A stretch of 46,228 bases of DNA from the NCBI RefSeq assembly GCF_019923745.1, contig NZ_JAANOG010000014.1:1-46228 (forward strand). The letters run 5' to 3'. Below are positions 105-12,654 of this stretch, piece by piece. The translations under genes and the position numbers were made by a program. This DNA is from Aquirufa aurantiipilula. GTDB lineage: Bacteria; Bacteroidota; Bacteroidia; Cytophagales; Spirosomataceae. Numbering within the stretch: the first letter of the stretch is position 1; the number at the start of each line of letters is the position of its first letter. The notes under the pieces are model-generated. The model was not told the DNA's origin, searched no databases, and worked only from the letters and a program-made list of their open reading frames with translations.

Positions 105-153
105 ATTCAGGCATTCACAATTTATAACCTATAATCTATAACCTATAATTTAT
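105..153. repeat. heptanucleotide tandem repeat array
   Basis: Seven degenerate 7-base units run without a gap (ATTCAGG, CATTCAC, AATTTAT, AACCTAT, AATCTAT, AACCTAT, AATTTAT). The last units enter the 3' end of the rhodanese-thioredoxin gene, so its final codons and stop (143-145 on the minus strand) are made of repeat sequence. The rest of bases 1-142 shows no gene. A short hairpin (arms 58-65 and 73-80) is present. Confidence 0.7.
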
Positions 154-847
154 TAAGTTCTTCTCTTCCAATCAAGCCTACGTTTTTCCAGATTAATTTC
201 CCGTCTTGGTATAATTCTAAATAAGGGATGGCTTCGATGTTCTTGGCTTTGGCTAATTCGGGATTTTCATCCACATCGATTTTAATCAATTCAACTGCTC
301 CTTTTTGATCTTTAACATAAGCTTCTAAGATGGGGCTCAATGTTTTGCAAGGTCCACACCAAGTAGCATTGTAATCAATAATAACCTTTTTCTTTCCCTT
401 AATTTGTGTTTCAAATGCAGCCAATGTCATTCCTGCTTGCTGGCTAGTAGCTCCCTCTTCCCTTGATAATGGTAAGCTGGCGGCATTCCAAGCTAAGATT
501 CCACCACCTAAATTATACACCTCTTTGAAACCCATGGAAACTAAAAGTTGGGCTGCTTGCGAAGATCTACCCCCAGACAGACAATAGACATATACTGCTT
601 TATCTTTATCTAAAGATCCAGCAACTTCTTGAAATGCCCCAGAACTAATATCGGCTGAAATAGCTCCTTGGATATGCCCACCTACAAATTCATCGGGAGT
701 TCTCACATCCAAAACTTGTTGGGATGCATTGCTTTGAATGGCCTTTTGGAATTCACTAGCACTCACATCTTGTAATCCATTTTCGGAAGGCTTGGAGCAT
801 GAAAAAATAGTTAGAGCGATTAGTAAAGAGAGGAGGAAAGCTTTCAT
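143..847 (-). CDS. rhodanese-thioredoxin fusion lipoprotein
   Basis: A 234-residue exported protein. The N-terminus is a hydrophobic signal followed by a lipobox-like IFSC with the acceptor Cys at residue 17, so it is probably membrane-anchored in the periplasm. Residues about 28-130 form a rhodanese domain with the active-site loop CLSGGRS (Cys89). Residues about 135-234 form a thioredoxin fold with WCGPC (163-167) and a later cis-proline segment AIPYLE. Rhodaneses carry sulfane sulfur on the loop Cys and thioredoxins reduce persulfides or disulfides, so a fusion can take up and release sulfur in one polypeptide (inference). It is the first of a minus-strand set with a free thioredoxin and a free rhodanese, next to SQR, SoxB and a TsdA-like cytochrome. 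A role in periplasmic sulfur transfer is likely. The substrate is not shown. Confidence 0.85.
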   Translation of the reverse strand: MKAFLLSLLIALTIFSCSKPSENGLQDVSASEFQKAIQSNASQQVLDVRTPDEFVGGHIQGAISADISSGAFQEVAGSLDKDKAVYVYCLSGGRSSQAAQLLVSMGFKEVYNLGGGILAWNAASLPLSREEGATSQQAGMTLAAFETQIKGKKKVIIDYNATWCGPCKTLSPILEAYVKDQKGAVELIKIDVDENPELAKAKNIEAIPYLELYQDGKLIWKNVGLIGREELNKL

Positions 848-878
848 ATATTAAATATTTTCTATGTGAAAAATATAA

Positions 879-943
879 GTTGTTAGTTGTTAGTGATTAG
901 TGATTAGCTTTTTCTTTATTTCTAAACACTAATAACTAATAAC
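879..943. repeat. paired heptanucleotide repeat arms
   Basis: Two arrays face each other in the gap between the thioredoxin and the rhodanese-thioredoxin genes. Bases 879-906 read GTTGTTA twice and GTGATTA twice. Bases 923-943 read TAAACAC, TAATAAC, TAATAAC. The second array is nearly the reverse complement of the first, so the transcript can fold into a hairpin with a 16-base loop. It may act as a weak terminator or attenuator between the genes. Confidence 0.65.
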
Positions 944-949
944 TGAAAA

Positions 950-1246
950 TTAGCTATACTGCTGTATAATTCCCACCAATGTATTTGCTGGAATAACACC
1001 CGATTGTCGCCAGACTGATTTCCCATTTTTGAATAAGATCATGGTGGGTACAGAACGAATCTGAAATTTCTCGGCTGTTTTTCGGTTTTTGTCTACATCC
1101 ACCTTAATGATTTTTGCACTATCCCCAATTTTGGCTTTAACTTGTTCCAAAATAGGCTTCAGCTGCTTGCAAGGGCCACACCATTCCGCTGAAAAGTCGA
1201 CCAACACAGGCTGTTCCGATTTCAATAATTCTGAAAAATTGCTCAT
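950..1246 (-). CDS. thioredoxin
   Basis: A 98-residue cytoplasmic thioredoxin without a signal peptide. The redox motif WCGPC lies at residues 22-26 and the cis-proline at residue 67 (SVPTM). Length and fold match a minimal thioredoxin. It starts 25 bases after the stop of the upstream rhodanese gene (1272-1574), so the two are probably one transcript from the promoter at 1595-1638. Within a sulfur locus, its likely job is to reduce protein or low-molecular-weight persulfides made by the rhodaneses and SQR. It could also be a general housekeeping thioredoxin; the motif alone does not decide. Confidence 0.9.
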   Translation of the reverse strand: MSNFSELLKSEQPVLVDFSAEWCGPCKQLKPILEQVKAKIGDSAKIIKVDVDKNRKTAEKFQIRSVPTMILFKNGKSVWRQSGVIPANTLVGIIQQYS

Positions 1247-1271
1247 AATTTTGACTTTTATAAAGACTAAA

Positions 1272-1574
1272 CTATTCTAATGACTTCCAAGTTCCACCAT
1301 TGTGTACATGTTGGAATCCATATGATTTCAACAAGCGTTTGGCGGCACCACTTCGCATACCTGAAGCACAGCAAGTGATAATAATATCTTCTTTTTTCAA
1401 TTTACTAAGATTGTTTGGCAATGTCTGTAAAGGTAAATTCAAAGAGCCTTTTACGTGGCCTTGTTGATATTCTGCCGGTGTTCGCACATCCACGATTTTT
1501 GCACCCGCTTTGATTAAAGTTGCTAAATCTACTTTTGGACCAAAACCCAATAAATTTTTAAGAAATTCTAACAT
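1272..1574 (-). CDS. single-domain rhodanese
   Basis: A 100-residue single rhodanese domain. The N-terminal part has the conserved VDVRTPAEYQQGH segment and the active-site loop is CASGMR, with Cys69 as catalytic residue and an extra Cys68 beside it. The six-residue loop is the usual sulfurtransferase size, which argues against an arsenate reductase or phosphatase. It has no signal peptide and should be cytoplasmic. It is the first gene of a probable two-gene operon with thioredoxin. The upstream region carries a Crp-like box and a perfect TAnnTTTG element, shared with SQR, the TsdA-like cytochrome and the TauE operon. It likely moves sulfane sulfur between persulfides and sulfite or thiols. 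Confidence 0.88.
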   Translation of the reverse strand: MLEFLKNLLGFGPKVDLATLIKAGAKIVDVRTPAEYQQGHVKGSLNLPLQTLPNNLSKLKKEDIIITCCASGMRSGAAKRLLKSYGFQHVHNGGTWKSLE

Positions 1575-1594
1575 ATTTTTGCTGATTTATAATA

Positions 1595-1638
1595 CAAAGG
1601 TAAGCTTGCTGTCAGCCATTTGGCGTGACAATTGTCTC
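1595..1638 (-). promoter_or_regulatory. promoter with Crp-like box, rhodanese-thioredoxin operon
   Basis: Read on the minus strand, an imperfect box GAGACAATTGTCAC (1625-1638) is followed after exactly 22 nt by TACCTTTG (1595-1602), a perfect match to the Bacteroidota -7 consensus TAnnTTTG. The ATG at 1574 lies 20 nt further on. The same box-22-TAnnTTTG layout occurs at 3997-4040 and 11810-11853, so this weaker box is accepted on positional grounds. Confidence 0.6.
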
Positions 1639-1649
1639 TTAAACTCAGA

Positions 1650-2252
1650 TTAAGCTATAGGCTTAGTTGCCACTAAATCAATAACAAAAGCTTTACCTTG
1701 GTGCAAGGGCCCTTCATTCAGGATACATTCTTTTTCCTCCATGGATTCAATTCTTAATCCTTCAAAATCTAGGCTTAATTCCTCCTTATCAAACAACATA
1801 TCTAGGATTTTAGGACCACCGGATGCTAGGCCTAATTGTTTTTTATGAAATCCTTCCAAAATAATTTTACCCCCTGGTTTTAACCATTTGATGCATTGCT
1901 GATGAAATTTATATCTTTCCATAGGCATTTGATGGAAATAGACCAATGCGATTACATCAAAGGATTCTAAAGGATAACGCACGCTAGCTGCATCGATGCA
2001 TTCATAATGCAAATTGACAGATCGTTCACCTGCTAGTTTATTAGCTTTTCCTTGTGCACTGTCACTACTATCAAAGGCATGAGTCTCCCAACCTAATTGC
2101 GCAGCAAATACTGCGTCTCGGCCTTCGCCTGCTGCTGGAACGAGCATTCGACCTGCCGCTAATAGTTGAATTTGCTTTTTAAAGAAATCATTGGGCTCTA
2201 GGCCATATTGATATTCTTTTGAATCATATCGATTATTCCAATTTGCTTTCAT
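1650..2252 (-). CDS. class I SAM-dependent methyltransferase (TehB/thiopurine-methyltransferase-like)
   Basis: A 200-residue soluble protein. The SAM-binding motif I is seen as LVPAAGEGRDAVFAAQLG (about residues 36-55), followed by an acidic residue at the end of strand 2 (HAFDSS) and a motif IV region DVIALVYFH. This fits the Methyltransf_25/TehB group. The acceptor is unknown; related enzymes methylate thiols, tellurite or selenite, which would suit a sulfur locus (inference). It is divergent from the DsrE-like gene, with only 35 nt between the two start codons, and its stop lies 75 nt before the rhodanese start. It has no Crp-like box of its own. Confidence 0.8.
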   Translation of the reverse strand: MKANWNNRYDSKEYQYGLEPNDFFKKQIQLLAAGRMLVPAAGEGRDAVFAAQLGWETHAFDSSDSAQGKANKLAGERSVNLHYECIDAASVRYPLESFDVIALVYFHQMPMERYKFHQQCIKWLKPGGKIILEGFHKKQLGLASGGPKILDMLFDKEELSLDFEGLRIESMEEKECILNEGPLHQGKAFVIDLVATKPIA

Positions 2253-2271
2253 GTATAGATTGCTTACTTTG
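2242..2271 (+). promoter_or_regulatory. candidate promoter for the DsrE-like gene
   Basis: TTTG (2242-2245) is followed after 19 nt by TACTTTG (2265-2271), close to the Bacteroidota -33/-7 arrangement TTTG-N19-21-TAnnTTTG but one base short in the -7 element. The ATG at 2288 follows after 16 nt. No Crp-like box was found here. Confidence 0.3.
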
Positions 2272-2287
2272 GGAAAAATTTAAAACT

Positions 2288-2698
2288 ATGAAAAAAATTG
2301 TTGTCACTTCTGTCTTTGCGCTATTACTGAGCTTTCATGCCCTAGCGCAGTCACCTGCTCATAAAATTGTGATTCAGGTGAATACTTCGGATACCACTGC
2401 ATGGCATGGTGTGGTACGTAATATCGGTAATCTACAAACTGCCTTGGGGCCAAATACTTCCATTGAAGTAGTGGCTCATGGTTCTGGTATTGGTTTGTTA
2501 ATAGACTCAAAAACGACTCAAAAAGCTAAAATCGCTGAATTAGCGGCTAAAGGAGTTTCATTTGTTGCTTGTGAAAATACCATCCGCATGAATAAAATTG
2601 ATAAAGCGACCCTATTGCCACAGTCGGGCTTTGTTCCTTCTGGTGTAGCTGAAGTTGTTTTAAAGCAAGAAGCAGGTTGGTCTTATTTAAAGCCCTAA
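2288..2698 (+). CDS. secreted DsrE/DsrF-like sulfur-carrier protein
   Basis: A 136-residue protein. The start at 2288 is preferred over an upstream in-frame ATG because it gives a clean signal peptide (MKKIVVTSVFALLLSFHALA). The mature part fits the DsrE-like fold: an opening strand HKIVIQVNTSD, then VEVVAHG-type and VSFVACENT segments. The Cys in ACENT is the only cysteine of the mature protein and sits where DsrE-family proteins carry their persulfide. Cytoplasmic DsrE proteins shuttle sulfur in reverse Dsr and TusA systems; this copy is exported, so it would work in the periplasm next to SoxB and the diheme cytochrome. It is convergent with SQR and separated from it by a terminator-like hairpin. 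Family assignment is good; the carrier role is inference. Confidence 0.75.
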   Translation: MKKIVVTSVFALLLSFHALAQSPAHKIVIQVNTSDTTAWHGVVRNIGNLQTALGPNTSIEVVAHGSGIGLLIDSKTTQKAKIAELAAKGVSFVACENTIRMNKIDKATLLPQSGFVPSGVAEVVLKQEAGWSYLKP

Positions 2699-2715
2699 TC
2701 ACCTAATTTGTTTGC

Positions 2716-2750
2716 AAAGAGCTGGGGGCATAAAAGGCTTCCAGCTTTTT
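2716..2750 (+). terminator. rho-independent terminator after the DsrE-like gene
   Basis: AAAGAGCTGG (2716-2725) can pair with CCAGCTTTTT (2741-2750), ten base pairs with one mismatch, around a 15-base loop; the right arm ends in a T run. It lies 18 bases after the DsrE-like stop and touches the 3' end of the convergent SQR gene. Confidence 0.6.
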
Positions 2751-3942
2751 ACATTTTACCCGGTAAAATTTCATTCCAATACAACCAAGGTAATATTTTG
2801 GTTTTCAATTGATACATTGACCACCTTTCTTTAGATTGATCAAATGGGAAAGTTTCTGTAGGTACATTGTTGTAATCAAATTCCGCTAAGACTAATTTCC
2901 CGTATCCTGTTATAATGGGACAAGATGAATATCCATTGTAAGAAGCTTTTAATGTTTCTCCTTTCATCATGGATAATAAGTTAGCTACCAAAACAGGCGC
3001 TTGTTTTCGTATAGCTGCTCCCGTTCTTGAGACTGGTATGCCGGCAACGTCACCGCAAGAAAATACATTGGGGAAACGAACATGTTGCAAGCTATGTTTG
3101 TCCACTTCTACCCAACCAGTCGCATTAGCTAAACTGCTTTTTTGGATAAAATCAGGTGCTGATTGATGTGGAGTCACATGGATCATGTCGTAATCTACCC
3201 AATATTCTTGGTTTTTATTTGTGTCACCTATTCCAACGAATTTGGCTTTTTGGGCTGGCCCATCTATCTCGACTAATTGGACAAAGAATTGAGTTTTGAT
3301 GCCATAGCGATGTATGACTTGCTTCAAGGTTTTTTCGTATTTCTCCACACCAAATACCCGAGTTCCTCCACTCCAAAATTGAACATCTGCATGTTTATGA
3401 TGCTTTTTGAAATAATCCGAAGAGAGGTACATGACCTTTTGGGGAGCACCACCGCATTTAGTGGGGGTAGGTGGATTAGTGAAAATTGCTTTTCCTCCTT
3501 TCGGTAGTGCTTGAACGCATTCCCAAGTATATGGAGCCGTTTCAAAGCTATAATTAGAACAAACCCCATTTTTACCTAGGCTTTCTTTCAGGCCTTTGAT
3601 GGCAGACCAATTTAACTGAATACCCGGACTCACCACCAGGTAATCGTAGTAAATGGATTCCCCACTGCTCAGTTCTAGTTTGTTTTTTTCAGCTTGAACC
3701 TCCGTTACCATGGCTTTGATCCAATGGACCTTATTGGGCATGACAGAAGCTTCATCACGAACCGTCTTTTGAATATCATACACACCACCGCCTACCAAAG
3801 TCCATGCAGGCTGGTAATAATGTTTTTCCGCAGCATCAATCAAGGCGATGTCTAATGAGGAATTCTGACGTAGTAGCTGACTGGCTACAGATATGCCTGC
3901 ATTACCTCCACCAATGATGATAATTTGATGGTGAATTCTCAT
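2749..3942 (-). CDS. sqr: sulfide:quinone oxidoreductase, type II (mitochondrial SQOR-like)
   Basis: A 397-residue FAD enzyme that oxidises sulfide at the membrane, passes electrons to quinone and releases the sulfur as a persulfide. The N-terminal FAD motif IIIIGGGNAGIS has glycines at 11, 13 and 16. A CGGAPQK segment (Cys163) and an SSCPIITGYGKLVLAEFDY segment (Cys341) match the two redox cysteines and surrounding sequence of mitochondrial SQOR. The C-terminal FPFDQSKERWSMY segment is also typical of that group. Type II enzymes hand sulfur to small acceptors such as sulfite, CoA or glutathione, which fits the persulfide dioxygenase and rhodaneses nearby. The gene is divergent from the TsdA-like cytochrome and shares one central Crp-like box with it. 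Confidence 0.92.
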   Translation of the reverse strand: MRIHHQIIIIGGGNAGISVASQLLRQNSSLDIALIDAAEKHYYQPAWTLVGGGVYDIQKTVRDEASVMPNKVHWIKAMVTEVQAEKNKLELSSGESIYYDYLVVSPGIQLNWSAIKGLKESLGKNGVCSNYSFETAPYTWECVQALPKGGKAIFTNPPTPTKCGGAPQKVMYLSSDYFKKHHKHADVQFWSGGTRVFGVEKYEKTLKQVIHRYGIKTQFFVQLVEIDGPAQKAKFVGIGDTNKNQEYWVDYDMIHVTPHQSAPDFIQKSSLANATGWVEVDKHSLQHVRFPNVFSCGDVAGIPVSRTGAAIRKQAPVLVANLLSMMKGETLKASYNGYSSCPIITGYGKLVLAEFDYNNVPTETFPFDQSKERWSMYQLKTKILPWLYWNEILPGKM

Positions 3943-3966
3943 GTGGTTTTTGTTTTAAATTATATG

Positions 3967-4040
3967 TAATATTATGAGATTCAAGCCTAGCAATTCGTGA
4001 TATTTGTCACTACATCAGGTAAATAGAGCGACTAAATTTG
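3967..4040. promoter_or_regulatory. divergent promoter with a central Crp-like box (SQR / TsdA-SoxB)
   Basis: The perfect box GTGATATTTGTCAC lies at 3997-4010. On the plus strand a perfect -7 element TAAATTTG (4033-4040) follows after 22 nt. On the minus strand TAATATTA (3967-3974), a weaker -7 match, also follows after 22 nt. The two ATG codons lie at almost equal distance from the box. A regulator bound here would sit near -41.5 of both promoters, the class II activation position. The flank AATTCGTGAT is identical to that of the box at 11840. Confidence 0.7.
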
Positions 4041-4064
4041 AATGATTTACCACCCTTATTCAAC

Positions 4065-5117
4065 ATGAAAACCAATACCCCAAAGAATACCCTGGATAAT
4101 TTTATTCGATTGTTGTATGTCTTGCTAGTCCTTTTACTCGGATTGATGGCATATTTGTTTTTTGGACAGTTAGATTCAAAGAAAAATGCCTTAGCTCAAT
4201 CGGATTCTAGCGCTGTATTTATTCAACCTGATTCCAATTTTACCCATGTGTGGACTGCTCCATCCGACTGGCGCATGATGTATTTAAGTCCTTCGCAAAA
4301 AGAATTGGTTGTTTATGGGCGGGAATTGATTGCACATACTTCCGATTATTTGGGCCCCAAAGGATCAGTAAAGGCTATGTCAAATGGCATGAATTGCCAA
4401 AATTGTCATTTGAAGGCGGGTTCTCAACCTTGGGGAAATAATTATTTTGCTGTGGAATCCACCTATCCTAAGTTTAGGGCACGCTCTGGGACAGTGGAAA
4501 ACCAAATCAAACGGGTTAATGATTGTTTTGAGAGAAGTTTAAATGGAATGAAGTTAGACTCGACAAGTAAAGAAATGCTGGCCATATTGGCTTATATTAC
4601 TTGGCTTGGTCAGGATATAGCCAAAGATGTTAAGCCCAAAGGTTCGGGAATATTCAAATTGAAATACCTGAAACGAGCTTCTGATCCAGATAAAGGTAAA
4701 TTAGTCTATGATGCCAAATGTCAATCTTGTCATCAGGCTAATGGGGAAGGAGTATTGGCTGAAGGTGGAAAATCCTATACTTATCCACCACTTTGGGGAG
4801 TTCATAGTTATAATCAAGGAGCGGGTTTATTTCGAATATCCAATTTAGCTGGTTTTGTGAAATACAATATGCCTTTGGGTACCACGTATGAAAAAGCTCA
4901 ATTGACGGATGAAGAGGCATGGGATGTGGCGGCATATATCAATTCCATGCCTAGACCAGAAAAAGATTTATCCAAAGATTGGCCAGAAATGGCAGCTAAG
5001 CCTTTTGATCATCCATTTGGTCCTTACGCGGATTCTTTCCCAGAATCCCAACATAAATTTGGACCATATAAACCTATTTCGGATTGGATCAAAAAACACA
5101 GAAAATCAAAAAGCTAA
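4065..5117 (+). CDS. TsdA-like diheme cytochrome c, membrane-anchored
   Basis: A 350-residue protein. The ATG at 4065 is chosen; an upstream TTG would lie inside the -7 region. Residues about 13-34 form an N-terminal membrane anchor. Two heme c sites are visible, CQNCH (111-115) and CQSCH (219-223). A Cys at 154 in RVNDCFERS sits about 40 residues after the first heme His, where TsdA and SoxA enzymes have their cysteine heme ligand. YNMPLG (Met259) can ligate the second heme. TsdA joins two thiosulfates to tetrathionate. The next gene, soxB, starts 4 bases downstream, so the pair is co-transcribed. A SoxA-like role, attaching thiosulfate to a carrier, is the alternative and would explain the linkage to SoxB. 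Confidence 0.78.
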   Translation: MKTNTPKNTLDNFIRLLYVLLVLLLGLMAYLFFGQLDSKKNALAQSDSSAVFIQPDSNFTHVWTAPSDWRMMYLSPSQKELVVYGRELIAHTSDYLGPKGSVKAMSNGMNCQNCHLKAGSQPWGNNYFAVESTYPKFRARSGTVENQIKRVNDCFERSLNGMKLDSTSKEMLAILAYITWLGQDIAKDVKPKGSGIFKLKYLKRASDPDKGKLVYDAKCQSCHQANGEGVLAEGGKSYTYPPLWGVHSYNQGAGLFRISNLAGFVKYNMPLGTTYEKAQLTDEEAWDVAAYINSMPRPEKDLSKDWPEMAAKPFDHPFGPYADSFPESQHKFGPYKPISDWIKKHRKSKS

Positions 5118-5121
5118 ACCT

Positions 5122-6792
5122 ATGAACTCTAGAAGGAAATTTTTACAAGGCGGTTTACTTGGTAGTGTGGCTGCCTTAACGCCTATAGCTTCCTCGGAAG
5201 TAAAAGGTGCATTTGCCCATTCCAATGCTGTCAAGCCGAGTTCAGGCCATATTACCATTTTACAAACAACGGATGTGCATTGTCAATTGCATGCCCATGA
5301 TGAGTTGTTTTGGGAGAAAGAAGAGCTTGTTTTTCGGAAAACAGGGGGATATGCACATATGGCTACGGCCTTAGATCGTATGAAGCAGGCGAATCCCGAG
5401 AATACGATTACTTTGGATACGGGGGATATGTTTCAAGGCTCCATGTTATCGGTGAAAACAACAGGCCAGGCTTTTGTTCCTTTATTGAATGCCATGGACT
5501 ATGATTTATACTTACCGGGTAACTGGGAAGTAGTGTATTACAAGAAAAACATGCAAAAGCTTTTGGGTGGACTTTTAGCTCCAAAAATTTGTGCTAATAT
5601 GTACCACGATGTAGCTGATGGTAAGAAAGGTGAATTGATCTTTCAACCCTATCAAATTATGCATCGTTTAGGGGTTAAAATTGGTTTCTTAGGTTACACG
5701 GATCCTTTGGTACCGCTTCGACAATCCCCTATGTATAGTAAGGGTATTTTATATACCAAACCAGAAGAAAATCTAAAAGAATACGTCGCAATTTTACGCG
5801 AACAAGAGCAATGTGATTTTGTCATCATTTTATCTCACTTAGGTCTCTCCCAGCAAATTGCCTTAGGAAATAACCCGCATTGTGAGGGTGTTGATTATAT
5901 TTTTGGGGCGGATACGCATGAGCGAGTACGAAAACCCATTCAAGCTGCTTATACGAAAATTGTGGAACCTGGAGCTTTTGGTTCTTTTATTGGAAAATTA
6001 GATATTCAGGTCAAAGATGGGAAAGTGACCGGTTCTACCTATGAATTAGTGGAAGTTGATCCTATGAAATATCCTGCTAAAAAGGAGATTTTAAACTTAG
6101 TAAAAGACTTAGAAGCACCGTGGAAATCCCAAATTGACCAAGTTTTAGGTTACAGTACCTTGCCATTGTATCGCAACTTTGTCGTTGAAAATACCATTGA
6201 TACACTGATTGTAGATGCATTGAAATGGAAAGTAAATGCGGATGTGGTTTTATCCAATGGTTTCCGTTTTTGTCCGCCACGCGTAGCTGGAAAGGATGGG
6301 AAAGTAGCAATTACCGAAGGCTATTTATTTGATATGTTACCTGTGGATTCCCCGATTCGGACGGCGAAAGCGACAGGTCAACAAATCATGAATTGGTTAG
6401 AAAAGGAATTGCAGAATGTCTTTGCTCAGGATGCGTCATTACGTTTTGGGGGATGGCTTATTCGTTTTAAGGGAATGCAGGTTGAGTTTAAAGCATTTGA
6501 GCGAGTAGGGCATCGGGTTCAAAAAGTTATTATTGGAGGGGCCCCCTTAGAGCTAGAGAAATCATATGTATTGTGTGCATGTGAACGCGACGGAGACCCT
6601 GAAGATATGCTTTGTCGCATGAAAGGGGTAAAAGAAGCCAAGAATACGGACTATACATTACATAGTATGATGAAAGAGTATCTAGCTAAATTCTCACCAG
6701 TGACGCCTAGTTTACGTCATGATGCTAAAATTCTGGATGGTCCACAGTCTTTGTTGAGTCAGGTTACAGGTGTGGATTATTCTTTTAGATAA
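5122..6792 (+). CDS. soxB: SoxB-like sulfur-thiol hydrolase (metallophosphatase/5'-nucleotidase fold)
   Basis: A 556-residue protein. The ATG at 5122 gives a Tat-type signal (NSRRKFLQGG), as in SoxB, which is exported folded with two manganese ions. Metal-site motifs are DVH (51-53), DTGD (99-102), GNWE (133-136), SHLG (238-241) and GADTHE (262-267). GNWE in place of the GNHE of ordinary 5'-nucleotidases is a SoxB mark. A 5'-nucleotidase C-terminal domain follows. SoxB hydrolyses the terminal sulfonate from a cysteine-bound sulfur chain on SoxYZ, releasing sulfate. SoxXA and SoxYZ are absent from the window, so either they lie elsewhere or another carrier is used. It is in an operon with the TsdA-like cytochrome. 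Confidence 0.85.
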   Translation: MNSRRKFLQGGLLGSVAALTPIASSEVKGAFAHSNAVKPSSGHITILQTTDVHCQLHAHDELFWEKEELVFRKTGGYAHMATALDRMKQANPENTITLDTGDMFQGSMLSVKTTGQAFVPLLNAMDYDLYLPGNWEVVYYKKNMQKLLGGLLAPKICANMYHDVADGKKGELIFQPYQIMHRLGVKIGFLGYTDPLVPLRQSPMYSKGILYTKPEENLKEYVAILREQEQCDFVIILSHLGLSQQIALGNNPHCEGVDYIFGADTHERVRKPIQAAYTKIVEPGAFGSFIGKLDIQVKDGKVTGSTYELVEVDPMKYPAKKEILNLVKDLEAPWKSQIDQVLGYSTLPLYRNFVVENTIDTLIVDALKWKVNADVVLSNGFRFCPPRVAGKDGKVAITEGYLFDMLPVDSPIRTAKATGQQIMNWLEKELQNVFAQDASLRFGGWLIRFKGMQVEFKAFERVGHRVQKVIIGGAPLELEKSYVLCACERDGDPEDMLCRMKGVKEAKNTDYTLHSMMKEYLAKFSPVTPSLRHDAKILDGPQSLLSQVTGVDYSFR

Positions 6793-6956
6793 TTGAAGAT
6801 TTAATATTAGTTGTTAGTTATTTGTTATTAGAATGAAATGCTCCAACATTTATAATTCATAATTTATCATTAACAATTCATCAAGCTGCGTTCCAACTAA
6901 CCGTTCAATGTAGAATTTTTATAGAAAACACCTTCGTGTAGCCCTGCGAAATGTGA

Positions 6957-7122
6957 TGAACGCAGCGGTAGACGAGGTTTTGACCTCAGCATAGGCAATG
7001 TGCGTCGGCGTCAAAAGTATAGGCGATAGCGGAGTGAATCACGGTTCCGCGAAGCGGAATTCGCCTTGGCTGAACGACAAAAAAGAAGTTTTTTTGTTTC
7101 TTTTTTTGTCCAAAAAAAGAAA
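6957..7122 (+). repeat. long non-coding repeat, copy A
   Basis: Contains GGCGTCAAAAGTATAGGCG, then a hairpin TTCCGC-GAA-GCGGAA (7045-7059), then TTCGCCTTGG, and ends in a perfect 12-bp palindrome TTTCTTTTTTTG-TC-CAAAAAAAGAAA (7097-7122). Copy B, in reverse orientation at 7211-7395, shows the same block order with many substitutions. It has no open frame and resembles the hairpin-rich, A/T-palindrome-tailed intergenic repeats seen in Bacteroidota. Confidence 0.6.
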
Positions 7123-7210
7123 ATCCCAAGTATTTGCTGAAACATCGTGTTATTGTTAAAACAACAAGAAATAGTCCTAAAAATAGCTTTGTCGAAGATT
7201 TAATTCATAT

Positions 7211-7395
7211 GGTCTTTCTTTTTTTATAAAATAAGAAACAAAAAAAACGGTAGGAATACGGTTAATCCTAAGACGAATTCTGCTACGCAGAACAGATTGT
7301 CTCTCCGCTTACGGCTTTAATCTTTGACGCCAACACACACGGCCTTTGCGCAATGTCAAATATCCGCCTTGCGCTTCGCTCAAGCTACGGTTCAA
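7211..7395 (-). repeat. long non-coding repeat, copy B (inverted)
   Basis: Read on the minus strand, it has GTTGGCGTCAAAGATTAAAG, the hairpin TTCTGC-GTA-GCAGAA (7278-7292), TTCGTCTTAGG, and a near-palindrome TTTCTTATTTT-AT-AAAAAAAGAAA with one mismatch. The hairpin has changed on both arms compared with copy A (TTCCGC to TTCTGC, GCGGAA to GCAGAA). This compensatory change suggests the folded form matters. Confidence 0.55.
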
Positions 7396-7500
7396 TCTTT
7401 CGTTGAGATTAACCTTTTTAGGTATTAGTTATTAGGATGAAAGGATTCAAAATTTATAATTCATCATTTACAATTTCCTTTCCGATTTTGATAAATGATA

Positions 7501-7534
7501 AAAAAAAGACCACCACCTTTCGGTAATGGTCTTT
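7501..7534 (-). terminator. rho-independent terminator for the YeeE/YedE pair
   Basis: On the minus strand, AAAGACCATTACC pairs with GGTGGTGGTCTTT around a GAAA tetraloop: 13 base pairs including two G-U pairs, followed by a run of T. It lies 25 bases after the stop of the gene at 7559-8068. Confidence 0.85.
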
Positions 7535-7558
7535 ATATCAATTTGAACTATATGGGTA

Positions 7559-8068
7559 TTAATGCGGTAGTTTATCGCGTAAGTATCCATAGGTCCACGT
7601 GCCAGCAATGGCGCTTAAGATCACCACAGATATGGATAATACTCCCGTGCCCAATTGAGCAAAAAGAGGACCAGGACAAGCCCCAGTGATAGCCCAGCCA
7701 AAGCCGAACATCAATCCTCCATAAATCTGGCCTTTATTGAATTTCTTGTCACTGAATGTAATGTCTTCTCCATGAATGGTTTTGATTTTCAATTGCTTAA
7801 TTAAAAACACTGAAATGGCTCCTACCACTACCGCAGTTCCAATGACACCATACATGTGAAAGCTTTGCAAACGAAACATTTCCTGAATTCTAAACCAAGA
7901 AATGATCTCCGCTTTGACGAATACTATTCCGAAAATCAATCCTACGGCTAAATACTTGAAATTATACCACCAAGGGTGCTTTAATTCGGATTCATTGATA
8001 CACATGGTATCCAATGATCTTACTTCATAATCCATTGGGTCGCTATGTACTAAATTTTTATTTTCCAT
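7559..8068 (-). CDS. YeeE/YedE-type sulfur transporter half (DUF6691-like)
   Basis: A 169-residue membrane protein. After a soluble N-terminal stretch of about 35 residues come four hydrophobic segments. The family motif GWAITGACPGPLFAQLGTG carries a cysteine in a Gly/Pro-rich turn. In full-length YeeE (TsuA) such cysteines line the thiosulfate path. This is one half of a split transporter; the other half is the next gene upstream, ending 5 bases before this start. Together they should move thiosulfate or another sulfur species across the inner membrane. The gene is followed by a strong terminator, so it ends its operon. Confidence 0.82.
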   Translation of the reverse strand: MENKNLVHSDPMDYEVRSLDTMCINESELKHPWWYNFKYLAVGLIFGIVFVKAEIISWFRIQEMFRLQSFHMYGVIGTAVVVGAISVFLIKQLKIKTIHGEDITFSDKKFNKGQIYGGLMFGFGWAITGACPGPLFAQLGTGVLSISVVILSAIAGTWTYGYLRDKLPH

Positions 8069-8073
8069 GATGA

Positions 8074-8637
8074 TTATAAGCTAAGAATGTAAGGTAAAAT
8101 GAAATTGGCCATGACGAATCCTCCTACCATGAAACAGATAGTGGCAACTAAAGAAGGCCATTGCAAATTGCTTAAGCCCATGATGGCATGACCCGATGTA
8201 CATCCTCCCGCATAACGCGTTCCGAAGCCCACTAAGAATCCTCCACCAATCATCATGATAATGCCTTTGGCTGTAAATAAGTTGTCAAAGGAAAATAACT
8301 GTACAGGAACTAAACCCGAATAATCATCTATCCCGTAAGTGGCTAATTCTTTTGCTAAATCTGGGTGGACAACCACAGGTTCATTGGAACCTAAATATTG
8401 AGCAGATAAAAATCCACCAATCAATATTCCTCCTACAAAAAATAAATTCCAAGATTCTTTTTTCCAATCGTATTTGAAAAAGGGAATATTACTTGGAAAA
8501 CAAGCCGCGCAAATATGCCTTAAGTTAGACGATATGCCAAAGTGTTTATTGCCCAATAGCAATAAAGCAGGTACGATTAAACCTATCAAGGCTCCCGCCA
8601 CGTACCAGGGCCATGGTTGTGAAATTGTTTCTATCAT
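8074..8637 (-). CDS. YeeE/YedE-type sulfur transporter half
   Basis: A 187-residue membrane protein with about five hydrophobic segments. The conserved GTRYAGGCTSGHAIMGLSNL motif contains the transport cysteine typical of YeeE/YedE proteins. It precedes the shorter half (7559-8068) by 5 bases, so the two are surely co-transcribed and probably assemble. It also contains a cytoplasmic or periplasmic CAACFP segment with two more cysteines. The 137-base gap upstream separates it from the small membrane protein genes and holds paired heptanucleotide repeats. No Crp-like box was found in front of it, so it may be read through from the TauE operon or have its own promoter. Confidence 0.85.
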   Translation of the reverse strand: MIETISQPWPWYVAGALIGLIVPALLLLGNKHFGISSNLRHICAACFPSNIPFFKYDWKKESWNLFFVGGILIGGFLSAQYLGSNEPVVVHPDLAKELATYGIDDYSGLVPVQLFSFDNLFTAKGIIMMIGGGFLVGFGTRYAGGCTSGHAIMGLSNLQWPSLVATICFMVGGFVMANFILPYILSL

Positions 8638-8659
8638 TGTTTGAGTATGGTAAGCAATT

Positions 8660-8777
8660 ATTAGCTATTCGTTATTAGTTGTTAGTTATTACTTATAAGT
8701 GGCTTGTCCTGAATTAATTTGAAGAATGTGTCTATTAATATTACTAATCCATAAACCCTAATCCCTAATCACTATTA
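8660..8777. repeat. paired heptanucleotide repeat arms
   Basis: Array one (8660-8694) has five units of the ATTAGTT type. Array two (8743-8777) has five units including CCTAATC twice, close to the reverse complement of array one. They bracket a 48-base spacer between the small membrane protein gene and the YeeE/YedE gene. Confidence 0.6.
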
Positions 8778-8981
8778 ACTGTTTGCTGTTTTTTTATTAC
8801 TGAAAAATCCACTAAAAATATAACCTAGAAAGGCAAAATACAAGGTACTATTCAATGGCTTGGAAGTCAGCGGACAAGTACCCGTACTGCATCCAATTTG
8901 TTGCCAATAAAAATATCCCGCAATTCCACCCAAAAAGGTGCCAATCAGAGCTAATTTATGGTTTTGAATGAACTTCTTCAT
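8775..8981 (-). CDS. small membrane protein, DUF6132-like
   Basis: A 68-residue protein with two hydrophobic segments (about residues 10-27 and 45-61). Between them is GCSTGTCPLTS, with two cysteines five apart, placed at a membrane face. This pattern fits the DUF6132 family, whose function is unknown. Its start overlaps the 3' end of the upstream small gene by 26 bases, so translation is probably coupled. Its position behind rhodanese and persulfide dioxygenase genes suggests a membrane thiol role, perhaps with the YeeE/YedE pair encoded next; this is inference. Confidence 0.65.
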   Translation of the reverse strand: MKKFIQNHKLALIGTFLGGIAGYFYWQQIGCSTGTCPLTSKPLNSTLYFAFLGYIFSGFFSNKKTANS

Positions 8982-9207
8982 ATGTTGTTTCTTCGTTATT
9001 TATGGAAGATGATTTCTTCGTTTTAGTAGGGATACCACATCCCTGAGCTCCACAACCTATATTAAATAAAGCCTGGATCAATAAAATTCCAGCTAACAAA
9101 CCTAAAAATAGTTCTTGCGTTTTAATGGCTTCAAACATGGCATAGCCACCCATTAAAAGGCGAGCCAAGCGCATAAGATCCCACGGTTGTCTGAGTGTGT
9201 TCCACAT
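8956..9207 (-). CDS. small two-helix membrane protein with C-terminal cysteines
   Basis: An 83-residue protein from the ATG at 9207, 4 bases after the rhodanese stop; a longer upstream frame would overlap that gene. The segment WDLMRLARLLMGGYAMFEA and a following helix place it near the DUF2892/YgaP-tail type of small inner-membrane proteins. After the second helix lies GCGAQGCG with two cysteines, then a polar tail. YgaP itself is a rhodanese fused to such a membrane tail, so here the two parts may be encoded separately. Function is otherwise unknown. Confidence 0.6.
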   Translation of the reverse strand: MWNTLRQPWDLMRLARLLMGGYAMFEAIKTQELFLGLLAGILLIQALFNIGCGAQGCGIPTKTKKSSSINNEETTYEEVHSKP

Positions 9208-9211
9208 AGGA

Positions 9212-9493
9212 TTAGTTGTTAGAATAAACCAACATATCTTGTAATGCACCTCCATTGTAGACTTCCTGATAACCCATCTGCTTAAGCATGGTTTGAGCTA
9301 ATCCAGAGCGGTTGCCACTGCGACAATACACAATGATGGGGCCGTCCATGGCTTTGAATTTTTCCAATTGGTTGGGAATAGTTCCTAATGGAATATTGAT
9401 GGCTCCTTCATAATGGCCTTGCATGAATTCCCCGACTTCACGCACATCCACTATACTAGTTTTCGGGTTGCTGATTAAATCTTGCATGTTCAT
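9212..9493 (-). CDS. single-domain rhodanese
   Basis: A 93-residue rhodanese. The ATG at 9493 is chosen over an upstream TTG, which would overlap the preceding gene; this leaves 2 bases after the dioxygenase stop. The domain has SIVDVREVGEFMQGH and the active-site loop CRSGNRSG with one catalytic cysteine, the standard thiosulfate-sulfurtransferase type loop. It lies between the persulfide dioxygenase-rhodanese fusion and the small membrane proteins on one tight operon. It could transfer sulfane sulfur to sulfite, giving thiosulfate, or feed the dioxygenase. Confidence 0.88.
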   Translation of the reverse strand: MNMQDLISNPKTSIVDVREVGEFMQGHYEGAINIPLGTIPNQLEKFKAMDGPIIVYCRSGNRSGLAQTMLKQMGYQEVYNGGALQDMLVYSNN

Positions 9494-9495
9494 GA

Positions 9496-10914
9496 TTACA
9501 ATAAAGTTGATGGACAAACATAGTCCGTGATATGAAATTTTTCCGATTCTTTGATGGATTTGAAACCACCATTGACATCAATTAAGTTGTGAAATCCACG
9601 TGCTCTTAAAGTAGAATTGAAAATCATAGAACGGTAACCTCCTGCACAATGCACAAAATAGGTTTTGTTCTTGTCAATTTTCAACATACTATCATTGATG
9701 AAGTCCAATGGGGCATTTTCAGCTTCCTTCACATGCTCACTTAAGAATTCTGAATTCTTACGTACGTCCAAGATTTCACCTTCACCTGCGGCAAAACGCT
9801 TGGCAACTTCCTCTGCTGAAATGGATTCAATACTATCTACTTCTTTACCAGCTGATTTCCAAGCCTCAAATCCACCCTTCAAGTATCCAATGGTGAAGTC
9901 GTAACCTACACGAGCTAACCGAGTAATCACTTCTTCCTCACGACCTTCATCTGTGATTAATAAAATTTCTTGTTTGATGTCAGGAATCATGGCACCTACC
10001 CAAGGAGCAAATGAACCATCGATTCCAATGTTGATGGAATTGGGTACAAATCCTTTCGTAAATGTTTGAGGATCACGTGTATCCAAAATTAGTGCTCCCG
10101 TTTCATTGGCAGCCACTTCAAAAGCTTCTGGCGATAAGGCGTGCTGACCTCTTTCTAATACTTTATCAATGCTGTCATAGCCTTGAATATTCATCAATAC
10201 GTTCAATGGGAAGTAGGATGGAGGGGCAACCAAACCTGTTAGAACTTCTTTTTTGAATTCTTCTCTAGTCAAATTGGGATTCAAAGCATAATTGGTTTTT
10301 TTCTGATTACCCAAGGTATCCGTGGTTTCCTTGCTCATGTTTTTACCACAGGCGGAGCCTGCTCCATGTGCTGGATACACGATGATATCGTCAGCTAATG
10401 GCATGATTTTGTTACGTAAGGAATCATATAAATGTCCAGCTAAAATATCTTCAGTTAATTCAGCTTTTACTTTTTGTGCCAAATCCGGACGACCAACATC
10501 TCCGATAAACAAGGTATCACCTGAGAATAAACTTGTTTCTTTACCATGCTCATCGATCAACAAGAAACAGGTACTTTCCATAGTATGACCAGGCGTGTGA
10601 ATGACACGGATGGTTGCTTTTCCTAATGGAAACTCTTGTCCGTCCGTAGCTGAAATGCAATCAAATGCACAAGCAGCATTGGGACCATAAACAATAGGGG
10701 CACCTGTTTTAGCTGATAAATCAATGTGTCCGGAAACGAAGTCAGCATGAAAGTGTGTCTCAAATACGTATTTGATTTTAGCTCCATTACGCTCCGCCTT
10801 TTGGATATAGGGTTCTACTTCGCGCAAAGGATCAATGATAGCTGCTTCGCCATTGTTTTCAATGTAATAGGCACCTTGTGCTAAACATCCAGTATAAATT
10901 TGTTCTACTTTCAT
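9496..10914 (-). CDS. metallo-beta-lactamase-fold persulfide dioxygenase fused to two rhodanese domains
   Basis: A 472-residue protein from the ATG at 10914 (a TTG lies 9 bases upstream). Residues 1 to about 240 form an ETHE1-like fold with THFHADFVSGH (His54, His56, Asp58, His63), PGH (His110), SGD (Asp133) and PAH (His183). ETHE1-type enzymes use one iron to oxidise persulfides to sulfite. A first rhodanese-like domain (about 265-360) has no cysteine in its loop (TDEGREEE) and should be inactive as a transferase. The last domain (about 370-470) has CAGGYRS with Cys423. The protein is in an operon after TauE and before a free rhodanese. It is the expected partner of type II SQR. The family also includes glyoxalase II-like proteins, but the fusion and context favour dioxygenase. 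Confidence 0.85.
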   Translation of the reverse strand: MKVEQIYTGCLAQGAYYIENNGEAAIIDPLREVEPYIQKAERNGAKIKYVFETHFHADFVSGHIDLSAKTGAPIVYGPNAACAFDCISATDGQEFPLGKATIRVIHTPGHTMESTCFLLIDEHGKETSLFSGDTLFIGDVGRPDLAQKVKAELTEDILAGHLYDSLRNKIMPLADDIIVYPAHGAGSACGKNMSKETTDTLGNQKKTNYALNPNLTREEFKKEVLTGLVAPPSYFPLNVLMNIQGYDSIDKVLERGQHALSPEAFEVAANETGALILDTRDPQTFTKGFVPNSINIGIDGSFAPWVGAMIPDIKQEILLITDEGREEEVITRLARVGYDFTIGYLKGGFEAWKSAGKEVDSIESISAEEVAKRFAAGEGEILDVRKNSEFLSEHVKEAENAPLDFINDSMLKIDKNKTYFVHCAGGYRSMIFNSTLRARGFHNLIDVNGGFKSIKESEKFHITDYVCPSTLL

Positions 10915-10962
10915 ATTCTTCAATAGTATGTTGTTAATGCGTTGTTTTAAGGTAGTTTGTGC

Positions 10963-11784
10963 TTATTTTAAAGGAAATGCTAATTGTTGAATTAAGATAT
11001 AAAGTCCCATTACGAGTACGAACCAGCCAAAACCTCTTTTTAATTTATCGTTATCTACGTTTTTGCTGAATTTATCTCCAATGAAAATTCCCGCCATAGC
11101 CAAAGCTGTAATGGTCATCAATAAGGTCCAATCAATGGTTTGATGCCCCAAATCTCCCGTGAAACCTATGAGCGATTTCATGGCTATGATAAGTAGTGAG
11201 GTACCTACGGCCTGTTTCATAGGTAATTTGGAAAGTACTACTAAAGCAGGAATGATTAAGAAACCACCGCCAGCACCTACTAATCCAGTTAATAATCCCA
11301 CGACAGAACCTTCCAACAATATAATTGGGTAATTGAATGCTTGTGCTTTGATTTCTTGGTCTTCAGCACCCTCTTTTCCACAGTTTTCACAGGTTCCACG
11401 AATCATCGAAATAGAAGCTGCAACCATCAATATGGCAAATAGGACCATCATTAAAATGGATTTGGTTATCATCAAATCTCCGATTTGGAATAAATCAGTA
11501 GGGATTAATGGTACAATGAATTTTCGTGTAGCATAAACAGAAATGATAGAAGGAATACCAAAAATAATGGCTGTTCTTAGATTAACTAAACCTTGTTGGT
11601 ATTTTGGGAAAGCCCCTACCAAACTACTTGCTCCTACTATAAAAAGGGAATATGCCGTAGCTAATATGGGATTGATGCCAAATAAATACACCAATACAGG
11701 TACGGTCAAAATGGATCCACCTCCACCTATGAGTCCCAAAGAGATTCCAATCAGCAAAGAGGCAAAGTATCCGATTATTTCCAT
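10963..11784 (-). CDS. TauE/SafE-family sulfite exporter
   Basis: A 273-residue membrane protein. The ATG at 11784 is used because the longer frame would run back towards the promoter. The two-fold repeat of the family shows as LIGGGGSILTVPVLVYL near the N-terminus and VGAGGGFLIIPALVVL in the second half, with about eight membrane segments. A hydrophilic loop between the halves carries CENCGKEG with two cysteines. TauE/SafE proteins export sulfite or related sulfonates, so it would remove sulfite made by the dioxygenase encoded next, 48 bases downstream. It is the first gene of the operon and has a Crp-like box with a -7 element upstream. Confidence 0.88.
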   Translation of the reverse strand: MEIIGYFASLLIGISLGLIGGGGSILTVPVLVYLFGINPILATAYSLFIVGASSLVGAFPKYQQGLVNLRTAIIFGIPSIISVYATRKFIVPLIPTDLFQIGDLMITKSILMMVLFAILMVAASISMIRGTCENCGKEGAEDQEIKAQAFNYPIILLEGSVVGLLTGLVGAGGGFLIIPALVVLSKLPMKQAVGTSLLIIAMKSLIGFTGDLGHQTIDWTLLMTITALAMAGIFIGDKFSKNVDNDKLKRGFGWFVLVMGLYILIQQLAFPLK

Positions 11785-11809
11785 GTTGTGCTTTTCATTT
11801 TTGTTGATA

Positions 11810-11853
11810 CAAATGTCTAGCATTTATTCTGCCTAATTCGTGATTTTTATCAC
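11810..11853 (-). promoter_or_regulatory. promoter with Crp-like box, TauE operon
   Basis: The perfect box GTGATTTTTATCAC (plus-strand reading) lies at 11840-11853. On the minus strand GACATTTG (11810-11817), one mismatch from TAnnTTTG, follows after 22 nt, and the tauE ATG 25 nt later. The flank AATTCGTGAT is shared with the box at 3997. Confidence 0.7.
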
Positions 11854-12012: not shown

Positions 12013-12654
12013 TTACATTTTTAAATTTAGAATCTCCACTTCATTCTTATGTAATTTAACATGCCCTTTTTCGGCTAGTTTTTTCATTAAGCGAGATATG
12101 ACTTCACGAGAAGAATTTAGCTCCAATGCGATATCTGTAAAAGACGTTTTGATGAAATTGCTTTTTAAACTCTTCTGGTGCTGTTTTAGATACCAAAGTA
12201 GGCGTTCATCCAGATTTCGGAAGGCAATATGGTCCAGCGTATCCAATAATTCTTCAAAACGAGCACGATAGGTTTCTAAGACAAATTGATACCAAGAACG
12301 GTATTTTAGGGCCCATTCATCCATTAATTCTACCGGGATGACTAAAACTTCCGTATCGACTAAGGCCTTGGCCATGATTTGACTGGATAATTGTCGAGCA
12401 GCACAAGTCATGGAAATAGCACAAGCTTCTCCTGGGTGAAGGTTGTACATGAAGACTTCATTTCCGTCATCGTCTTCTCGAAATACTTTAACAACCCCAT
12501 CCAATACCAATACTGCCGAACGGATTTGTTGTCCGGTTTGCATTAAATATTCCTCCGCTTTAAACTTGCGTACCGCACCAACTTGCTGTACTTTTTTGAG
12601 TAATTCAGGCTCAAATTGTTGGAATAATCTCTGGGTATCGGAAGCAGTTGCCAT
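12013..12654 (-). CDS. Crp/Fnr-family transcriptional regulator with a CX5C effector domain
   Basis: A 213-residue regulator from the ATG at 12654, just after the stop of the upstream gene. Residues about 10-120 are a cyclic-nucleotide-binding-type domain. The segment GEACAISMTC puts cysteines at 78 and 84 in the effector pocket region. It has no four-cysteine iron-sulfur signature of Fnr. The C-terminal winged helix has the recognition segment SSREVISRLMKKL (181-193); Arg183, Glu184 and Arg188 align with Crp Arg180, Glu181 and Arg185, which read GTGA half-sites. The sulfur promoters in this window carry GTGA-N6-TCAC. It most likely controls them and may sense persulfide or redox state through the two cysteines (inference). 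It is co-transcribed with a Gfo/Idh gene. Confidence 0.85.
   Translation of the reverse strand: MATASDTQRLFQQFEPELLKKVQQVGAVRKFKAEEYLMQTGQQIRSAVLVLDGVVKVFREDDDGNEVFMYNLHPGEACAISMTCAARQLSSQIMAKALVDTEVLVIPVELMDEWALKYRSWYQFVLETYRARFEELLDTLDHIAFRNLDERLLWYLKQHQKSLKSNFIKTSFTDIALELNSSREVISRLMKKLAEKGHVKLHKNEVEILNLKM

Follow-up and report, generated by a model that had tools for sequence, protein, structure and literature searches.

The Crp protein (CRP) of Escherichia coli reads GTGA half-sites through an arginine, a glutamate and an arginine at positions 180, 181 and 185 and contacts cAMP through E72 and R82; FNR, another member of the Crp/Fnr family, needs four cysteines for its [4Fe-4S] cluster. 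The regulators named as sulfane-sulfur responders in a 2024 review are FisR, SqrR, CstR, OxyR, CsoR, AdpA, LasR and members of the MarR family (PMC11211675), and the accessible part of that review names no Crp-type regulator among them and contains the word Crp zero times. According to the accessible part of another study, a Crp-like protein of Acinetobacter baumannii is persulfidated in sulfide-exposed cells, the effect of this modification not being known (PMC7315123). We found no account of the control of sulfide or thiosulfate oxidation in Bacteroidota, in a search that was largely blind to the slash spelling "CRP/FNR". Here we analyse an entire contig of 46,228 nucleotides (nt) from Aquirufa aurantiipilula (Bacteroidota; genome G000, 3.08 Mb), referred to below as the window. 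A sulfur gene cluster spans positions 143–11784 and is adjoined by a gene for a Crp/Fnr-family regulator of 213 amino acids (aa) at 12013–12654 on the minus strand. Our results suggest that this protein is probably a dedicated class II activator of the neighbouring sulfide and thiosulfate oxidation genes, for which we infer binding, activation and operon extents.

A first-pass annotation had proposed that a single Crp-type regulator acts on four sulfur promoters, each with a GTGA-N6-TCAC box lying 22 nt before a TAnnTTTG-like -7 element. Direct reading of the sequence recovered all four pairs of box and -7 element, with a gap of exactly 22 nt in each. The box GTGATATTTGTCAC (3997–4010) faces two divergent promoters and can be read on both strands, with 22 nt to the -7 element TAAATTTG of TsdA-SoxB (4033–4040, plus strand) and 22 nt to the -7 element TAATATTA of the sulfide:quinone oxidoreductase (SQR) gene (3967–3974, minus strand). 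On the minus strand, the TauE operon is preceded by the box GTGATAAAAATCAC (11840–11853) and the -7 element GACATTTG (11810–11817), and the rhodanese-thioredoxin genes are preceded by the box GAGACAATTGTCAC (1625–1638) and the -7 element TACCTTTG (1595–1602). All three boxes rest on direct reading together with a scan of the genome. The predicted 5' leaders are 16, 20, 20 and 21 nt long for the starts ATG 1574, 3942, 4065 and 11784, respectively.

We then used the composite motif GTGA-N6-TCAC-N22-TAnnTTTG, which has 14 fixed bases, with the backward pattern as a background control. The TsdA promoter matches it without mismatch, the TauE and rhodanese promoters with one mismatch each and the SQR promoter with two. 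The SQR-side element TAATATTA, a poor fit to the consensus, is the weakest item of the set; we take it as functional because it is identical in 7/7 Aquirufa loci that have the shared box, including locus L124, whose spacer has diverged. The flank AATTCGTGAT that was also said to be common to two boxes is indeed present at 3992–4001 and 11836–11845, and it amounts to just a weak genus-level feature: among the unique sites of the genus, 74% have G at -34, directly beside the box, versus 36% of other Bacteroidota sites.

Across the 3.08 Mb of the genome, exactly three places match the composite when a single mismatch is allowed, all inside the sulfur cluster. Only two exact GTGA-N6-TCAC words are found in the window, both at the sulfur promoters. 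In 100 dinucleotide shuffles of the window the mean number of composites was 0.01 and the maximum 1, against the 3 observed. When 38 gaps between box and -7 element (8–45 nt) were scanned in the window, a gap of 22 nt gave three matches, a gap of 40 nt gave one and all others gave none. These counts confirm that the layout in the window is genuine and beyond chance. A wider regulon was also sought in the genome and not found: apart from the sites of the cluster, allowing as many as three mismatches yields no more composites than the control (158/138 versus 152/142 backward). No composite with two or fewer mismatches was found upstream of the regulator gene in the window scan, so autoregulation is not seen in the window. 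Elsewhere in the genome, a near-palindrome GTGATTTTAATCAT (contig C6, 11890–11903; L020:964–977) lies about 70 nt upstream of another Crp-type open reading frame (ORF), with no -7 match 22 nt downstream.

The same layout was found in related genomes, where the box and the 22-nt gap are retained at the same promoters. In 38 genomes of the genus, the composite, again limited to a single mismatch, was counted 135 times versus 17 backward, and the same motif with a 24-nt gap was counted 24 times versus 24 backward. These genus counts and those of the genome go against the outcome that would have refuted the proposal, a composite at chance frequency genome-wide and without sulfur genes. Among 158 regulator-positive genomes, we hand-picked 20 genus or near-genus loci (19 from the genus and 1 from genus g31) and 20 family loci, and we added a phylum set of 80 loci, the best among 580 relatives, which had been retrieved with two peptide patterns, one of them including a cysteine motif. 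Eight phylum loci with at least 79% identity were excluded from the gap scan, leaving 72 from Chitinophagaceae, Flavobacterium, Pedobacter, Saprospiraceae, Pontibacter and others. Over the same 38 gaps, the window and the 20 genus loci gave 62 sites at 22 nt (next, 9 at 21 nt), the family loci 24 at 22 nt (next, 1) and the phylum loci 86 at 22 nt (next, 10 at 23 nt). In the genus loci the spacer is variable in sequence and constant in length.

At least one site is present in every one of the 20 genus or near-genus loci fetched, and at least one with no more than one mismatch is present in 12/20 family loci and 53/72 phylum loci. In the genus, the gene downstream of a site is TauE, SQR, TsdA or the first rhodanese; some loci also have a site ahead of an OprD-like porin or a DUF2202 protein. 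The 86 phylum sites are found upstream of MBL-rhodanese (33), TauE (16), the first rhodanese (7), SQR (3) and other cluster genes (6), and 21 precede no gene that is recognisable with the proteins of the window. Even the free positions of the box are constrained: of 171 unique sites, 100% have R at -39 and 96% have Y at -44; judged from the sites, the box consensus resolves to GTGAY-N4-RTCAC. Of the mismatches in these sites, 89 affect the -7 element, while within the box the promoter-distal half-site has 44 and the promoter-proximal half-site 10. The distal half-site commonly reads GTAAC in Flavobacterium, and it reads GAGAC at the Aquirufa rhodanese promoter.

Some relatives carry further genes with sites of their own. 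In several Aquirufa relatives, the regulator and TauE are separated by the gene of an OprD-family porin (Pfam, L086) that has a composite box of its own (L086:1563–2957, L114:2998–4392 and L120:15712–17106); the window has just 160 nt between these two genes and no porin gene there. A lipoprotein-like DUF2202 gene (Pfam, L095), divergent to SQR, has its own exact composite box in L095, L112 and L121. Unlinked composite sites stand before a gene for an 87-aa heavy-metal-associated (HMA) domain protein (Pfam, L083) in L083, L099, L105, L109 and L111, and before a gene for an AhpC/1-Cys peroxiredoxin (Pfam, L084) in L084 and L100. The HMA-domain and peroxiredoxin genes are possible extra regulon members in these genus relatives.

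The regulator itself belongs to the Crp/Fnr superfamily, with a cNMP-type sensor domain (PF00027, 42.7 bits, cut-off 27.5) and a Crp-type winged helix (PF13545, 31.3 bits, cut-off 27), both over cut-off; its NCBIfam matches are Crp/Fnr-type or encapsulin with a cNMP-like domain. Its ORF is also open from ATG 12708, which would give 231 aa. The predicted structure (predicted local distance difference test score 88.4, predicted template-modelling score 0.67) has 3dv8 as its best fold match and also matches other Crp-family folds. The residues announced for reading GTGA were borne out by an alignment of 30 sequences (the window protein and 29 of 41 relatives' regulators), with R183 and R188 in 30/30 and E184 in 29/30. 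Its recognition helix reads S-R-E-V-I-S-R versus S-R-E-T-V-G-R in CRP. These residues, together with the GTGAY-N4-RTCAC boxes, indicate DNA recognition of the CRP type. Several other identities were rejected: cAMP-activated CRP (NF008732, 35.9 bits versus an equivalog cut-off of 266; A79 at the position of E72 and L at that of R82), FNR (NF008365, 18.7 versus 228 bits; C78 and C84 are the only cysteines) and the ArsR, CsoR and sigma-54 families of the sulfide regulators SqrR/BigR, CstR and FisR, as the Pfam matches are solely Crp/Fnr domains.

The two cysteines, C78 and C84 (C-x5-C), are the only ones in the 213 aa of the protein, are invariant in the 30/30 aligned sequences and sit, by alignment, in the segment where CRP holds cAMP. 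The motif is also found in 80/80 further loci, which is partly a result of the fetch pattern that contains it, as well as in 3dv8 and in three Pseudomonadota relatives (Thiothrix, and plasmids of Paracoccus and Thioclava). Two conserved cysteines in the sensor domain are a property expected of a sulfane-sulfur (persulfide) sensor. The cysteine pair and the nature of the target genes make sulfane sulfur, acting on C78/C84, the likeliest signal, and we would place this proposal at about an even chance of being correct. It is quite possible, although we hold it to be the lesser prospect, that the same activator answers to disulfide stress, nitric oxide, a metal or a small ligand instead: paired cysteines can respond to several oxidants, the fold matches include HcpR, DNR and FNR, and the sites before HMA-domain and peroxiredoxin genes in some relatives would fit a signal of this kind. 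Such signals are harder to reconcile with most of the recognised targets, which handle sulfide, thiosulfate or sulfane sulfur, and with a 213-aa protein that has only two cysteines.

The position of the box bears on how the regulator would act. The flavobacterial sigma-A box TAnnTTTG lies at -12 to -5 in the accessible part of the published description (PMC9723704). If the -7 elements occupy these positions, a gap of 22 nt and a box of 14 nt place the box centre at -41.5, which agrees with the position near -41.5 that had been suggested for this locus. This is the position of class II Crp promoters. A site at -41.5 at a fixed distance from the core promoter is one mark of such promoters, and the 22-nt peak in all three sets of loci, taken with predicted start sites, conforms to it. 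We propose that a dimer of the regulator binds GTGAY-N4-RTCAC centred at -41.5 and, in class II geometry, would contact the RNA polymerase carrying the Bacteroidota sigma-A at the TAnnTTTG-like element; such contact could explain a gap that stays at 22 nt even though the spacer is free in sequence. The regulator would in this way switch on the rhodanese-thioredoxin genes, SQR, TsdA-SoxB and TauE-(MBL-rhodanese)-rhodanese together, the last perhaps extending as far as YeeE/YedE. The expected outcome is that sulfide and thiosulfate are oxidised and that the resulting sulfane sulfur is cleared.

Instead of activating, the regulator might cover the -41.5 region, block RNA polymerase and be released by a sulfur signal, as SqrR and CstR are. 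Repression is the known mode of two sulfide regulators, SqrR, by a title cited in the accessible part of PMC11211675, and SoxR, by the accessible part of PMC10451225. We nevertheless regard repression as unlikely here, since a 22-nt gap that is fixed phylum-wide around a free spacer suits contact with RNA polymerase, whereas the sites of repressors can usually shift in position. In addition, the first base of the -7 element is not T in 41% of the 171 unique sites, which were selected allowing one mismatch, and this is as in activator-dependent promoters.

Box presence tracks the presence of the regulator. Family genomes carry 4.50 composites per genome with the regulator (n = 158) and 1.88 without it (n = 64), versus 1.31 and 1.28 backward, and a difference as large as this arose in none of 5000 within-genus permutations outside genus g1. 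Genus g1 itself offers no contrast, as 35 genomes have the regulator and the 3 that do not are all incomplete; one of the three, G035, holds a C-terminal fragment of the regulator at a contig end. The MBL-rhodanese promoter allows a fair test because this gene is present in 63/64 regulator-negative genomes. A box with at most two mismatches within 350 nt upstream was found for 27/30 best copies of regulator-positive genomes, for 0/48 loci of regulator-negative genomes and for 0/20 second copies of regulator-positive genomes. The 30 best copies are the loci obtained out of 52 genomes of two genera, the second copies were hand-picked and the 48 negative loci (28 of 30 found plus 20 more) represent 47 genomes, G184 being present twice. 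The other two of the 30, from the metagenome-assembled Aquirufa genomes G034 and G035, were counted separately and lack a box upstream of MBL-rhodanese; TauE stands first in Aquirufa.

This association also bears on a further reading, in which the boxes are real and are read by another Crp/Fnr protein while the neighbouring regulator has some other role. The Aquirufa genome does hold two other Crp-type proteins, in a search that covered HTH_Crp_2 proteins, and genomes G124 and G128 show boxes though the regulator was not found in them. Both of these other proteins lack the first arginine of the GTGA-reading set, the regulator and the boxes remain together in many genera, and the boxes at MBL-rhodanese follow the neighbouring regulator as just described. 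We therefore consider another reader very unlikely. The claim that one Crp-type regulator is common to the four sulfur promoters appears well supported by the gap fixed across the phylum and by the boxes that follow the regulator.

Several observations weigh against a dedicated activator or limit its reach. Nineteen of the 72 phylum loci have no composite at one or fewer mismatches, no sulfur gene was recognised within roughly 10 kb of 6/20 family regulators and no box was found in 3/30 regulator-positive best copies. Linked copies have shared ancestry, so the counts are not independent events, and the 30 best copies amount to fewer than 30 such events. Genomes G124 and G128 have composites before SQR, TauE and rhodanese genes (L350, L351, L356 and L365); searches with the regulator protein and profile found no regulator in G128, which is 63% complete, or in G124, which is in 320 contigs, and none of the other cNMP-domain proteins examined in the two has a Crp-type S-R-E recognition helix. 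The fixed -41.5 position taken alone is also compatible with repression, and the cysteine-based signal is something we infer. The idea that a short palindrome and an AT-rich octamer resemble the motif by chance can be considered refuted: although the box word alone is common in the genome at two mismatches (1353 forward versus 864 backward) and the composite falls to background when three are allowed, chance is ruled out by the genome counts, the gap spectra, the 24-nt gap control, the shuffles, the permutations, the MBL-rhodanese promoter test and the constrained free positions.

The genes behind these promoters encode recognisable sulfur functions. On the minus strand, the first group comprises a rhodanese-thioredoxin fusion (143–847, PF00581 and PF00085), a thioredoxin (950–1246, TIGR01068, 112.5 bits, above cut-off) and the first rhodanese (1272–1574, PF00581, 64.3 bits). 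SQR (2749–3942, minus strand) matches human-type, mitochondrial SQR structures over almost its full length (384.8 bits, residues 4–395). On the plus strand, a TsdA-like dihaem thiosulfate dehydrogenase starts at ATG 4065 (4065–5117; 4wqc, 146.8 bits) and is adjacent to a SoxB-like protein of the 5'-nucleotidase family (5122–6792; 2wdc, 100.1 bits; TIGR04486, 258.9 bits, below the cut-off of 550). A scan of 15 window proteins revealed no further sox gene. Between SoxB and the following pair of genes, some 750 nt (6800–7550) have no ORF of at least 90 aa and a repeat-rich look. The remaining genes are on the minus strand: the second and first halves of a YeeE/YedE-type sulfur transport protein (7559–8068, PF04143, 40.6 bits; 8074–8637, PF04143, 67.2 bits), a rhodanese (9212–9517, PF00581, 63.3 bits), a persulfide-dioxygenase-like MBL-fold protein with two rhodanese domains (9496–10923; 3tp9, 224 bits; 3r2u, 220 bits) and a TauE/SafE-family transporter of 273 aa from ATG 11784 (10963–11784, PF01925, 151.5 bits). 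The start of the latter was set by relatives: ATG 11784 agrees with 273-aa relatives and with the promoter position, whereas the longest ORF starts at ATG 11823, which is unlikely because it is upstream of TauE's own -7 element.

The regulator is also found on plasmids with TauE-, MBL- or YeeE-type genes (L235, L236, L233 and L234), in Pontibacter akesuensis, Spirosoma linguale and, in part, Paracoccus and Thioclava. Four plasmid sites were detected in Pontibacter akesuensis and one in Spirosoma linguale, whose plasmid copy adjoins a Tn3-family transposase. The plasmid occurrences suggest a mobile module.

The finding appears larger than first noted, as the composite would represent a rigid class II code that Bacteroidota use for the metabolism of sulfide, thiosulfate and persulfide, with a cysteine-based sulfur sensor as a probable part. 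More tentatively, and at somewhat less than an even chance, the oxidation of sulfide, thiosulfate and persulfide in much of the phylum may have as its main activator a Crp/Fnr subfamily in which the pocket that once took cyclic nucleotides has turned into a cysteine sensor of sulfane sulfur, acting through this rigid promoter code and with relatives near similar genes in Alphaproteobacteria. Our analysis names one transcription factor, a DNA code (GTGAY-N4-RTCAC, 22 nt, TAnnTTTG) and targets, which makes the putative regulon readable from sequence. For the Bacteroidota sigma-A it also offers a clean natural series of candidate class II promoters, and it puts forward a Crp protein as a candidate for cysteine-based sensing of sulfur.

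Compared with described systems, the regulator is like E. coli CRP in its fold, in a recognition helix of the form S-R-E-x-x-x-R, in its GTGA/TCAC half-sites and in a box centred as at class II CRP promoters. It differs from CRP by its score, by the loss of the cAMP contacts, with two cysteines there instead, by the Bacteroidota -7 element and by its local sulfur regulon. The redox and nitric oxide sensors FNR and HcpR have the same fold; FNR has a four-cysteine cluster versus two cysteines here, and the likeness to HcpR is known from fold similarity only. The best profile and fold match, 3dv8, is a putative Crp/Fnr regulator of Eubacterium rectale that shares C-x5-C and whose entry title states no function. 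Crp/Fnr regulators on plasmids of Paracoccus aminophilus and Thioclava share both C-x5-C and R-E-V-I-S-R with the window regulator at 27–30% identity, and they are annotated by family only. Both adjoin genes for an MBL hydrolase and a sulfurtransferase, joined in Paracoccus by YeeE/YedE and DsrE, whereas the gene of the Thiothrix relative is not beside such MBL-hydrolase and sulfurtransferase genes. GTGAY-N4-RTCAC is absent from the Paracoccus stretch and occurs once in the Thioclava stretch, inside another gene. The Crp-like protein of A. baumannii is likewise a member of the Crp family with a cysteine modified by sulfane sulfur; it has 50% identity to E. coli Crp and, in the accessible part of the study, no link to a sulfur regulon (PMC7315123). 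As far as the accessible parts of PMC11211675 and PMC7315123 describe them, SqrR/BigR, CstR, FisR, OxyR and MarR members also control SQR, persulfide dioxygenase, rhodanese or YeeE/YedE genes and sense through cysteines, and these sulfane-sulfur regulators belong to protein families that differ from that of the Aquirufa regulator.

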